This document shows, piece by piece, positions 20,232 to 36,502 of a stretch of 36,502 nucleotides of DNA. The notes under the pieces were generated by a model. The model saw only the letters and a list, made by a program, of their open reading frames with translations, ran no database searches and had not been told where the DNA came from. Both the position numbers and the translations under genes were made by a program. Within the stretch, counting starts at the first letter, position 1; each line of letters starts with the position of its first letter. Origin of the DNA: Actinomycetota bacterium (GTDB taxonomy: Bacteria; Actinomycetota; Acidimicrobiia; Acidimicrobiales; AC-9); the NCBI GenBank assembly GCA_005888295.1, contig VAWP01000071.1, positions 1 to 36,502 of the forward strand, read 5' to 3'.

Positions 20232-20366
20232 TTGACCATTATCGTCAAAGCGGCGTCCGCAGGCCGCCTGCGTGTTGCGGAGCCCCAGGTCTTCCGGTAT
20301 ACGTGGCAAAGGGCGGAGCAAAGACCTCGGGTCAGCGCGCCGAAACACCGGGGTAACAGGGTGGTC
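20232..20366 (+). other. Structured intergenic region upstream of M23-like gene
   Basis: This part of the 305-bp gap (20169-20473) holds several dyads. TTGAC (20232-20236) matches GTCAA (20244-20248). AGGTCTT (20287-20293) pairs with AAGACCT (20321-20327), with flanking CC/GG pairs. From GGAGCAAAG to about 20366 (GGGTAACAGGGTGG...CGAA) the order of short motifs loosely resembles the 3' part of class-I cyclic-di-GMP (GEMM) riboswitches. The usual 5' half is not convincing. A promoter predicted at 20384-20412 lies downstream, so this could be upstream regulatory DNA instead. Confidence 0.3.
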
Positions 20367-20473: not shown

Positions 20474-21679
20474 GTGAGGCAGTTGCGAGTCTCGACCCGG
20501 CGCTGGACCGGCCTCTTCCTGGCAGTCGTCATGTTCGTACCTGCGGTCGTGAGCGTCGTCATGTCGGTCATCTACAACGCCCTGGCCAAGCAGTACCGGG
20601 CCCACACGCCGAGCGGCCTGCCGCTGCCCGGAGCCCCGAAGAGCCAGCGCGTCGAGGACCAGGCCCGGCTGGCGAGCGCGGTCCACGGGCAGCCCGCACC
20701 CATCCACGTTCTCGAGGCCAGCTTCCACGCCCAGGCGAGCACGGCGCACGTCGTCGCCAGCCCGCTGCACAACCTGGCCGCCGAGCCCGTCGGTCACCAC
20801 GGCAGCCTCCTGGCGGCAGCGCCATCACAGCACCGCGCCTGGGGACGAGCGTTCGTCGTGGCGCACGGGGCGGGGACGACCACGGCGCTCAGGGCCCGGC
20901 CGACGACCGTGGCCAGCCAACGGGATCGCCTCGAGGACCAGCTGAAGGCCCTCGCCGCCCAGCGGGCGCAGGCGGCCAGGCTGGCTCAGCAGCGGGAGCG
21001 ACAGGAGGAGGCGCAGGCGCTGCAGGTGTTGGCTGCGGCGAAGCATCGCCAGCAGGTGCAGCAGTACCTGGAGGCGGCGGCGGCGAACGCGCAACGGGAG
21101 CGTGCGGCCCTCCAGTCCCTCGCCGCTGCGCGACATCGCCAGCAGGTCGAGCGCTTCCTGGTGGCGGCCGCTGCGGCGCACCGGGTCGAGCTGGCGAGGG
21201 CACCCACGACGGGCCATGCCACCCTGCCCCCGCCGCCTCCCGTGACGCGCACGGCCTTCCACACGGGGGTCGTGACGCCGCCCCAGCAACCGACGCTGCC
21301 CGCACCGGTCACCAGCGTCCCCGGCCAGGGCGGTCTGCCGCTGCCGGCCCAGTACCTGCAGAACGGCACGGTCGACCAGGGAGTCGACTATGCGGCCCCG
21401 GGTGGCACGCCGCTCTTCGCCATGGGTCCGGGCACGATCGTCCGGGCGGGCATGGCCGGATTCGGGCCCAACGCCCCCGTACTGCAGATCGGAGGTGGAC
21501 CGCTGGCCGGCCGGGCCGTCTACTACGGCCACGCCGGTCCGAACCTCGTTCCCGTCGGCGCCCGCGTCGCCCAGGGCCAGCAGATCTCCATCGTCGGCTA
21601 TGGCAGGGTCGGGATCTCCACCGGCCAGGCGATGCTCCACTACGTCAACTCTGTCGTCGGCCACAACACCGGCCGCTGA
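20474..21679 (+). CDS. Exported coiled-coil protein with degenerate M23 peptidase-like domain
   Basis: GTG 20474 has AAAGG just upstream. The 401-residue product starts with a basic head and a hydrophobic segment (WTGLFLAVVMFVPAVVSVVMSVIY), a signal anchor. Residues about 140-240 are Gln/Ala/Arg-rich with repeated HRQQV blocks and should form a coiled coil. A Pro-rich linker leads to a lysostaphin/M23-like beta domain from about 290: GVDYAAPGGTPLFAMGPGTIV and YYGHAGPNLVPVGARVAQGQQI. In active M23 enzymes zinc is held by H-x3-D and HxH. Here the first position is Asp301 (DQGVD), and of HxH only His389 (MLHY) is present, while His353 in YYGH is kept. It is therefore probably a non-catalytic, EnvC/NlpD-like wall-binding or activator protein. 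It is convergent with the carboxylase gene. Confidence 0.78.
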   Translation: MRQLRVSTRRWTGLFLAVVMFVPAVVSVVMSVIYNALAKQYRAHTPSGLPLPGAPKSQRVEDQARLASAVHGQPAPIHVLEASFHAQASTAHVVASPLHNLAAEPVGHHGSLLAAAPSQHRAWGRAFVVAHGAGTTTALRARPTTVASQRDRLEDQLKALAAQRAQAARLAQQRERQEEAQALQVLAAAKHRQQVQQYLEAAAANAQRERAALQSLAAARHRQQVERFLVAAAAAHRVELARAPTTGHATLPPPPPVTRTAFHTGVVTPPQQPTLPAPVTSVPGQGGLPLPAQYLQNGTVDQGVDYAAPGGTPLFAMGPGTIVRAGMAGFGPNAPVLQIGGGPLAGRAVYYGHAGPNLVPVGARVAQGQQISIVGYGRVGISTGQAMLHYVNSVVGHNTGR

Positions 21680-29693: not shown

Positions 29694-29903
29694 TCACCGC
29701 TCACCCAGGCGACGGAACGTGTTGAGCGAGAACTCCTCGAGCGTCCGGGGCAGGTCGGCGCGGTCGGGATGGGCGTTCTCCCACCACGTGGCGCGCAGCG
29801 CTCCGCGCCGGGAGAGGACCTCAGGCACCCGGGTGGCCTCGTAGGCGTCGGGCGGGGAGTCGGACATCTCGAGGTACAGACCAGCGGTGATGCGGTCCTC
29901 CAT
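29694..29903 (-). CDS. Short hypothetical protein, possibly truncated
   Basis: ATG 29903 has GGGGAGGGGGGA upstream at about 11 bases. The 69-residue product (YLEMSDSPPDAYEATRVPEVLSRRGALRATWWENAH...RADLPRTLEEF) looks truly coding. It recalls the first part of larger EthD/stress-response-like ferredoxin-fold proteins, though I am not certain of that. The last ten residues look unrelated to such a fold. The stop lies ten bases from the palindromic repeat at 29551-29684, so the original 3' part may have been lost when that element arose. It is divergent from the small MOSC gene. Confidence 0.45.
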   Translation of the reverse strand: MEDRITAGLYLEMSDSPPDAYEATRVPEVLSRRGALRATWWENAHPDRADLPRTLEEFSLNTFRRLGER

Positions 29904-29972
29904 CGACGTAACGTCCCCCCTCCCCGTGCAAAAGGCGTTGACGAAGCTAGCAGCGGCCTCGAAGCTCTACCC

Positions 29973-30488
29973 ATGGACGGCGTCGTCGCGGGCATCTACC
30001 TCAGCGCTGTCGCCGGCGGCGCCATGCAGCACCGGGACGAGGTGGAGGTGGGCCCTGGAGGCGTGGTGGGCGATCGCTACTCCTCCGGGAACGGGAGCTG
30101 GTCGTCGAAGCCCGCGTCGGGGCGGGCGTTGACCCTCATCGAGGAGGAGGCCATCGAGGCCGTCCGCCGGGACTACGGGGTCGAACTGGCGCCGGGAGCG
30201 ACGCGGCGCAACGTCGTGACCCGAGGCGTCGCCCTCAATCACCTCGTGGGCCGGACGTTCCGTGTCGGCGAGGCCGAAGTCGTCGGAGTGCGGCTGGCCG
30301 AGCCGTGCGCGCACCTGGAGGCCCTCACCGCGGCGGGCGTCCGCCGCGCCCTGGTGCACCGGGGCGGGCTGCGGGGTGAAGTGGTGTCCGGTGGCTGCGT
30401 GCGGGTCGGCGACCCGGTGCGGCTCCTCGAGCGCCCGGAGCGCCCCGAGCGCCCCGAGCGCCCCGAGCGCCACGTGGCCAACGAGTAG
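29973..30488 (+). CDS. Small MOSC-domain protein
   Basis: The 171-residue product starts at ATG 29973, where family-like sequence begins (MDGVVAGIYLSAVAGGAMQHRDEVEV); the ribosome site is weak and the frame is open further upstream. MOSC features are GPGGVVGDRYS, ALTLIEEEAIEAV, TRRNVVTRGVALNHLVGRTFRVGEAEVVGVRLAEPCAHL, with the cofactor-binding-type cysteine in EPCAHL, and LRGEVVSGG. This is a stand-alone MOSC domain, unlike the longer MOSC_N protein at 28199-28951. Such proteins are thought to carry or use a sulfurated molybdenum cofactor. The C-terminus ends in four ERP tripeptides encoded by 9-bp repeats. Confidence 0.83.
   Translation: MDGVVAGIYLSAVAGGAMQHRDEVEVGPGGVVGDRYSSGNGSWSSKPASGRALTLIEEEAIEAVRRDYGVELAPGATRRNVVTRGVALNHLVGRTFRVGEAEVVGVRLAEPCAHLEALTAAGVRRALVHRGGLRGEVVSGGCVRVGDPVRLLERPERPERPERPERHVANE
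30430..30468 (+). repeat. 9-bp repeats encoding ERP tripeptides
   Basis: GAGCGCCC(C/G)-type units are repeated four to five times at the 3' end of the small MOSC gene, giving ERPERPERPERPER. A shorter run of the same tripeptide occurs at about 24371-24395 in the small protein at 24325. Confidence 0.85.
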
Positions 30489-34973: not shown

Positions 34974-35582
34974 TCAACGAGCCTCTTTCGGGGGCATCTG
35001 GCGAAGGTCACTGAGCACGTGGCCGCCGTTGACGTACAGGATCCCCAGGCCGAGAGGCTTGATGCGTCGACGCAACCGGGTGAGCTGGACGCGGAGGGTG
35101 TCCCGCTGCCCGCCGCCATCGGGCCAGCCGAAGGTGAGCAGCTCGGCATCCTCGACCACCTGTCCGAACGCCTCCACCAGTGCGCCCGCAAGCCGGGCCG
35201 TCACCCCCGACAGGGCCACCCAGCGCCCGCCGTGGAACAACCGACCGTTCTCGTCGAGCTGGGGCACCGTCGCCACGCGTCGACGGTCCGCCACCCTCCG
35301 GGCCAGCGCGGCGAGACGGGCCTGGGTCTCGCCGAGGTGCACAGGTGTACGCACCCAGTCCTGGAGAGGATCGTCGAGCCACGGCACTGGCTCGTCCCCA
35401 CGGGCGAGCACGAGCCGTGCCGTCGACGACTCTGCCAGCCAATGCAGAAGCTCTTCGTCCTCGGGCCAGTGCACGACGGCCACGATCACCGGCTCGGAGT
35501 CGGCGTGCGCCGATGGGGCTGCCCCGTACGAATGCCCCTGGAAGGCCCCGTACGAGGACGTCGCTCGGTCCAGTTCCCGCAA
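34974..35582 (-). CDS. OmpR-type winged-helix regulator with degenerate receiver
   Basis: I choose TTG 35582 because GGAGG lies seven bases upstream (35590-35594); the frame is open much further but that part covers the control region. The 202-residue product has an N-terminal alpha/beta segment (VIVAVVHWPEDEELLHWLAESSTARLVLARGDE) that looks like a shortened receiver without the phosphorylated Asp. Its C-terminal winged helix resembles OmpR/PhoB-type domains: GRWVALSGVTARLAGALVEAFGQVVEDAELL, RDTLRVQLTRLRRRIKPLGLGILYVNGGHVL. Lack of a phospho-acceptor suggests control by protein level or ligand, as in orphan or GlnR-like regulators. Two 20-bp boxes with 11-bp-spaced repeats lie just upstream, so autoregulation and control of the divergent membrane protein are likely. 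Confidence 0.75.
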   Translation of the reverse strand: MRELDRATSSYGAFQGHSYGAAPSAHADSEPVIVAVVHWPEDEELLHWLAESSTARLVLARGDEPVPWLDDPLQDWVRTPVHLGETQARLAALARRVADRRRVATVPQLDENGRLFHGGRWVALSGVTARLAGALVEAFGQVVEDAELLTFGWPDGGGQRDTLRVQLTRLRRRIKPLGLGILYVNGGHVLSDLRQMPPKEAR

Positions 35583-35645
35583 GTGGACACCTCCTCGGTC
35601 GTGAGCGGATCGTACGACTCGGCTGTTTCGTGCCTCTTCAGTGCA

Positions 35646-35720
35646 TGTAAACGGCGCGTTAATCAGAGGGCCCCTTTGTTTCAGTTCCGAGCGCCAGGCT
35701 GTTAACGCGCTGTTAATCAG
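35646..35720. promoter_or_regulatory. Two 20-bp direct-repeat boxes for an OmpR-type regulator
   Basis: GTAAACGGCGCGTTAATCAG (35647-35666) and GTTAACGCGCTGTTAATCAG (35701-35720) match at 16 of 20 positions. Each contains two GTWAA half-sites exactly 11 bp apart, the geometry used by OmpR/PhoB/GlnR-family dimers. They are 54 bp apart, between the regulator (starting at 35582, leftward) and the membrane protein gene (starting at 35788, rightward). Confidence 0.7.
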
Positions 35721-35787
35721 CCTGTCGAACGCCTGTGACGTACGAGCCTTACCTTCTCCGCCATGCCTAACGGAAGGGTTGGCTGAC

Positions 35788-36333
35788 GTGGCAACGAAGA
35801 CATCGCATGCAGTTCTCGACCGATCTCGGTCCGGGGGACGCGAACGCAGCGAACGCCCTGGGCCCCTGACGATCCGCCTGGCCGACCGGCACCGGTGGGT
35901 CGGCTTCCTTGCGGCGCTCACCGCTGCTGGAGGTTTCGCGTTCCTCTGGGTGCCGAATCTCGGCAACCGGGTGGCGACCGGCGCCACCGGGACCAGCTAC
36001 CTGCTCATCGGCCTGGCGCTCTCCGGTCTTCTCGTCGCTGCGAGCGTCACTCGTCGCGGCGTGCTCATGGCCGGAGGCGCGCTGCTGGTGGCCGTCGGGC
36101 CGTGGGGGCCAGAGTTCGCCATCCAGATCATCTTCTTCGTGTACGCGGTCTTCCTCATGGTGATGGTGGCCCGCCAGACACGAGATACCAGCAGGGGAGA
36201 CAACCGCATTTCCTCGTGGCTGTCGGGGCTGCGGCTCAGGTTCGCTCCTTCACCCGCACCGGCTGCTGGGGCCGTGCGCCCACGACCGGCGAGCTCGGCG
36301 CGCTACACCGCGCCCCAGCGCCGGAGGAGGTGA
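35788..36333 (+). CDS. Hypothetical four-helix membrane protein
   Basis: GTG 35788 has GGAAGG upstream at about 12 bases; the frame is open further 5' through the regulatory boxes. The 181-residue product has a polar, Arg/Ser-rich N-terminus and then four hydrophobic helices (WVGFLAALTAAGGFAFLWVP, SYLLIGLALSGLLVAASV, VLMAGGALLVAVG, FAIQIIFFVYAVFLMVMV). A basic, Pro/Arg-rich cytoplasmic tail follows. No family is recognised. Its position opposite the orphan winged-helix regulator, with shared boxes between, suggests they work together, perhaps as an envelope or stress response pair. Confidence 0.65.
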   Translation: MATKTSHAVLDRSRSGGRERSERPGPLTIRLADRHRWVGFLAALTAAGGFAFLWVPNLGNRVATGATGTSYLLIGLALSGLLVAASVTRRGVLMAGGALLVAVGPWGPEFAIQIIFFVYAVFLMVMVARQTRDTSRGDNRISSWLSGLRLRFAPSPAPAAGAVRPRPASSARYTAPQRRRR

Positions 36334-36434: not shown

Positions 36435-36469
36435 AGCGTCCAGAACGACAGCCCTAGGAGGTGGCTGGT

Positions 36470-36502
36470 TTGCTGCACGGGTATCCAACCTATTTGAACG
36501 CC
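36470..36502 (+). CDS. Possible start of a further gene, cut by window edge
   Basis: GGAGG (36457-36461) stands eight bases before TTG 36470, which opens a stop-free frame (LLHGYPTYLNA) to the right edge. Only 11 codons are visible, so no product can be named and the call may be chance. Confidence 0.3.
   Translation, partial: MLHGYPTYLNA

Follow-up and report, generated by a model that had tools for sequence, protein, structure and literature searches.

The far end of the analysed stretch of DNA (36,502 nucleotides from an Acidimicrobiales bacterium, hereafter the window) looks like the control centre of an ammonium-uptake operon, in which the gene of a membrane protein is followed by amtB and glnK, and like a local, re-wired offshoot of the GlnR nitrogen control of actinobacteria. 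The reading favoured here, with reasonable but not high confidence, is drawn from sequence comparison and assumes a dedicated activator for nitrogen limitation with a re-specified operator, so that control would pass from GlnR to a mini-regulator and from there to amtB-glnK. Such a cascade is likely because the gene of the mini-regulator has a GlnR-type promoter. The features are collected in Table 1.

An earlier note on this DNA had described an orphan winged-helix regulator with a receiver remnant lacking the phospho-acceptor Asp, two 20-bp boxes with GTWAA half-sites 11 bp apart, and a four-helix membrane protein, which together were taken as a complete regulator-operator-target unit of undescribed signal and role. 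All of these elements were recovered and the unit is present; its target, however, is not the membrane protein alone, as the operon runs on into amtB and glnK, and we infer that the regulator binds the boxes. The view that signal and role are not described did not hold, since synteny ties the unit to amtB-glnK, and both the atypical receiver and the class of operator are reminiscent of GlnR nitrogen control.

Table 1 Features of the regulator-amtB region, in coordinates of the window
Feature	Positions	Strand	Remarks
Mini-regulator	34974..35582	-	202 aa, TTG start; truncated receiver (~33-100) and OmpR/PhoB winged helix (~104-195)
Regulator Shine-Dalgarno sequence, GAGGAGG	35590..35596	-	Sequence kept in all four orthologues
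Regulator promoter	35609..35651	-	GlnR-type three-half-site box TTTAC-N6-TGAAG-N6-GAAAC, N10, -10 TACGAT; best match of the window to the order-wide box matrix
Box 1, GTAAACGGCGCGTTAATCAG	35647..35666	+	Overlap between its first half-site and the outer half-site of the GlnR-type box at the regulator
Box 2, GTTAACGCGCTGTTAATCAG	35701..35720	+	Centre ~52 bp ahead of the inferred transcript start of the amtB operon
Conserved block, GTCGAAC-N4-GTGAC	35724..35739	+	GTGAC 10 bp ahead of the -10, as is the innermost half-site of GlnR-type promoters in the order
Putative -10 (TACCTT) of the membrane protein-amtB-glnK operon	35750..35755	+	
Membrane protein	35788..36333	+	GTG start at 35788; 181 aa with about four hydrophobic segments; leads the amtB operon
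amtB start (ammonium transporter, first 11 codons)	36470..36502	+	TTG at 36470; Shine-Dalgarno AGGAGG at 36456-36461; cut by the contig end; C85 runs on into complete amtB and glnK

The ammonium-uptake operon

The window ends 11 codons into amtB, and the full operon (membrane protein, amtB and glnK) is seen on contig C85 (3945 bp), which begins within the regulator and continues through the two boxes and the membrane gene into a complete amtB (Pfam Ammonium_transp, E 1e-78), followed by a P-II gene. In two further genomes of the genus, the whole set of regulator, two boxes, membrane gene, amtB and glnK occurs once each, and a single amtB match was found in each of the three genus genomes. C85 probably represents the orthologous locus in a co-binned relative and not a duplicate, because both of its flanks match the sister genomes and its divergence from the window (12%, i.e. 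88% identity) equals the distance between species. A paralogous second copy was considered and found less likely; the downstream sequence matches the single locus of the sister genomes and the identity is at species level. In the membrane gene of C85 (L006:241-885), about 76 bp are missing near the 3' end, by which the frame is shifted and the basic C-terminal tail replaced; this is either a real variant or an assembly fault.

The association extends beyond the genus. Among 40 loci with regulator homologues from other families, amtB and/or glnK was present in the retrieved stretch of about 30, in most cases adjoining the regulator. On account of this synteny, the unit can be assigned a role in ammonium uptake, in the genus and across the order.

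The membrane protein gave no convincing match in Pfam or NCBIfam, and its structure model is weak (pLDDT 50). In genome G050, which belongs to another family and is the nearest AmtB plus membrane-protein relative without the regulator, a homologue with 42% identity lies directly upstream of an amtB with 71% identity (L265:1468-3404); this locus has neither the regulator nor GTWAA boxes, and a TTCAC-N6-GAAAC box is located between its membrane gene and amtB. Since a homologue is paired there with a similar amtB in a locus free of regulator and boxes, the membrane protein seems to track the type of AmtB and not the regulator. It is perhaps an accessory of the transporter.

The mini-regulator and the genuine GlnR

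The best start of the regulator is the TTG at 35580-35582 behind the Shine-Dalgarno sequence; in three orthologues this start codon is GTG. Homologues of the protein (P0001) were found in 73 of the 198 Acidimicrobiales genomes, with 86% identity within the genus and about 40% outside it, and they also occur elsewhere in the class. The Pfam Trans_reg_C score of 21.3 bits is below the gathering score of 26.2, but the OmpR/PhoB fold is nonetheless clear from the structure model, in which residues 104-195 mostly have a pLDDT above 90 and the winged helix matches the DNA-binding domains of NsrR, VanR, PhoP, PhoB and GlnR with VIA Z 10-12 at 2-3 Å. The complete five-stranded receiver with its phospho-acceptor Asp is absent: the model shows strand-helix-strand-strand-helix before the linker, and in a profile alignment with GlnR only the second half of the GlnR receiver is covered. 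The residue aligned with Asp50 of GlnR is His, and it is His or Arg across the family. According to a published account, GlnR dimerises via α4-β5-α5 and is not phosphorylated on Asp50 (PMC10704036). As the retained half of the receiver includes this dimer face, it can fairly be supposed that the regulator forms phosphorylation-independent dimers as well.

The mini-regulator is not the GlnR orthologue, either by best match in the genome or by a glnA/glnR context. The orthologue (G000:C176:21862-22518, a 245-codon frame) is encoded between two glnA genes and has 47% identity to GlnR of M. tuberculosis; its recognition helix, TVDVHVRRLRAKL, is the same as in the M. tuberculosis protein and is unchanged in the genus. 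The glnA intergenic region carries a GlnR-type box, TTCACACTGGGGCAACAGGCGGGAAAT, which is conserved in the sister genomes. In the family of the mini-regulator, the recognition helix reads (R)N(A/V)LDVH(V/M/I) in about 105 of 117 sequences. All three members from the genus have RDTLRVQLTR, a change from LDVHV to LRVQL, and among the 117 sequences LRVQLTR was found only in this genus.

A single-domain cyclic-nucleotide-binding protein (Pfam cNMP_binding, E 1e-17) is encoded divergently from the mini-regulator at L051:4898-5332 on the reverse strand, and the upstream sequences of several other loci resemble that of L051.

Boxes and promoters

The two boxes are 20 bp each and lie 54 bp apart, with GTAAA/GTTAA half-sites at 35647/35658 and 35701/35712. 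They share with GlnR operators the tandem arrangement with an 11-bp period; the half-sites, however, are GTWAA and GTTAATC, and not those of gTnAc-n6-GaAAc. Box 1 faces away from the regulator promoter. With up to two mismatches, 0.02 occurrences of the box pattern were expected by chance in the window and two were observed. In the 3.7-Mb genome, with at most one mismatch, only the pair in the window and two sites at the orthologous C85 locus, also 54 bp apart, were found; when three mismatches were allowed, matches were only about 2-3 times as frequent as with a reversed-pattern control. The boxes are confined to a single locus in three genomes, and a GTWAA regulon beyond this promoter, which had been considered, was not found in the scan of the organism's own genome.

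The boxes were present in every relative of the same genus examined that has both genes. They are unchanged in two more species, and four orthologues with about 88% nucleotide identity have retained both boxes and spacing. In the alignment of these four loci, all half-site columns are invariant (26/26), and invariant columns make up 37 of the 40 in the boxes as against 67 of 92 in the remaining intergenic sequence (Fisher p = 0.0075). The block spanning box 2 to the -10 is nearly invariant as well. Conservation of the first half-site of box 1 is not independent, since this sequence also serves as a GlnR half-site.

An order-wide matrix was built from 80 sites of the form TTCAC-N6-GAAAC-N6-GAAAC-N10-TACSGT. 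Scored as a 43-mer, the regulator promoter reaches 24.0 bits, the top of all window positions (99.99% quantile, -3.2), and the glnA promoters reach 15-18, whereas the promoter of the amtB operon, which has no clear -35, reaches only 2.7. Hence, in the genus, the GlnR-type box is kept at the regulator and at glnA, and none of comparable score is present at the amtB operon, where the GTWAA boxes are found instead. In other families, a looser form of the box occurs in 31 of 40 upstream regions of the regulator, compared with 0.8% of random windows. The strict box, TTCAC-N6-GAAAC-N6-GAAAC, gave about 76 matches in the 198 genomes, compared with 4 in the control. The order-wide box equals the GlnR box of the literature, gTnAc-n6-GaAAc (PMC10704036; PMC5826061). 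GlnR is likely its reader, because the order-wide box also precedes amtB in genomes that lack the mini-regulator; for the same reason, the mini-regulator is unlikely to be the sole reader of TTCAC-N6-GAAAC-N6-GNAAC.

Another motif was observed near the GlnR-type box of amtB, between regulator and amtB, namely GTCAG-N6-GTCAG direct repeats 11 bp apart (L049, L051, L055, L057, L058, L060, L064, L082, L151, L152 and others). These precede amtB in 15 of 27 loci with the mini-regulator and in 1 of 30 amtB loci without it, against a background of 0.3%; most copies overlap the 3' end of the regulator gene, and the amtB types differ between the two sets of loci compared. The distribution is suggestive of a candidate ancestral site of the mini-regulator.

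Proposed circuit and comparable systems

In the favoured cascade, the regulator would be a dedicated, phosphorylation-independent factor of the OmpR family. GlnR, or its nitrogen signal, would switch on the mini-regulator via the GlnR-type promoter, and the mini-regulator would then bind boxes 1 and 2 as head-to-tail dimers on the GTWAA half-sites. From box 2, at about -52, it would activate the membrane protein-amtB-glnK operon under nitrogen limitation. On box 1, which shares bases with the outer GlnR half-site at the promoter of the regulator, it may damp its own synthesis.

As the strongest rival, the two boxes could be degenerate GlnR sites, bound by GlnR itself, from which amtB would be activated directly as it is in Streptomyces; the mini-regulator would then bind elsewhere or be accessory. 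GlnR sites are variable (PMC10704036) and GTTAAC resembles tTAAC; moreover, amtB of S. coelicolor is a direct GlnR target with six half-sites (PMC5826061), and in the present genome GlnR is encoded and a GTGAC half-site lies 10 bp from the -10. This reading is rather unlikely in view of the low matrix score at the amtB promoter next to those of the regulator and glnA promoters, obtained with the same 43-mer, and of the GlnR helix, which is unchanged in the genus and gives no reason for a site change at one promoter only.

It is also unlikely that the mini-regulator is a repressor, which would bind the boxes and shut the operon and itself in nitrogen excess, perhaps being released through GlnK. 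The overlap of box 1 with the GlnR-type box of the regulator would suit such a role, and a local amtB regulator under GlnK control is known from the AmtR-GlnK system of Corynebacterium. Box 2, however, lies upstream of the -35/-10 of the operon and not over them, and OmpR-family factors bound to tandem 11-bp sites at such a distance from the promoter mostly activate. That the boxes are read by another OmpR-type regulator (e.g. PhoP/RegX3- or MtrA-like) is very improbable: tandem 11-bp sites are common in the superfamily and several further OmpR-type proteins are encoded in the genome, but in three genomes the boxes are restricted to this promoter, which fits a local and not a global regulator, and they always stand beside the mini-regulator and are missing in the relative that lacks it.

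Returning to the cascade through the mini-regulator, the operator and the base-reading helix differ together in the genus, although this is a single evolutionary event (n = 1) and no proof. Box 2 could descend from a GlnR half-site, as the half-site at the corresponding position in the order's amtB promoters is sometimes GTAAT. It may tentatively be proposed that the genus moved its ammonium-uptake operon from direct GlnR control to a GlnR-driven mini-regulator, helix and operator changing together, to give two non-cross-reacting nitrogen circuits per cell. If true, this would be a natural example of a regulator and its operator co-evolving, with dozens of relatives still in the ancestral state. 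The genus offers a compact test case for joint shifts of specificity in a winged-helix factor and its operator. With a half-receiver OmpR family next to amtB-glnK, a further level of control would be placed below GlnR. There seems to be hardly any description of nitrogen control in Acidimicrobiia, and none of the papers searched joins GlnR, ammonium transporters and Acidimicrobiia.

Dedicated local control of amtB-glnK, as proposed here, is known from the AmtR-GlnK-amtB system of Corynebacterium, in which AmtR is a TetR-type repressor with sites unrelated to those described above. GlnR of Actinomycetota (S. coelicolor, M. tuberculosis; 8hih, 8hig, 8hml, 4o1h) is likewise an OmpR-type winged-helix protein with a receiver that is not Asp-phosphorylated and with no partner kinase; its half-sites also stand in tandem 11 bp apart, and amtB-glnK is a main target. 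It differs in being a global regulator with a complete receiver and GTnAC/GAAAC half-sites, whereas the mini-regulator has half a receiver and is located next to GTWAA/GTTAATC half-sites at a single promoter, in a genome that also encodes a true GlnR. Two further systems are comparable from their published descriptions. GlnRII of Streptomyces is a second OmpR-type regulator without phosphorylation residues that binds nitrogen promoters (PMC10704036); it shares the targets of GlnR, whereas the mini-regulator sits beside amtB and would have its own operator if the boxes are its sites. NnaR of mycobacteria is an orphan regulator that acts together with GlnR at some of the nitrogen genes (PMC6277429), but it controls the use of nitrate and nitrite.

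Two observations were made elsewhere in the window. The second-best match to the GlnR-type matrix, GTCAG-N6-GAAAC-N6-GTAAC at 20331-20357 on the forward strand, lies about 120 bp before an open reading frame with a Peptidase_M23 domain (20474-21679), and we take it to be possibly an MtrA-type rather than a nitrogen site. The open reading frame at 29769-30488 has a C-terminal short tandem repeat, PERPERPERPERP.
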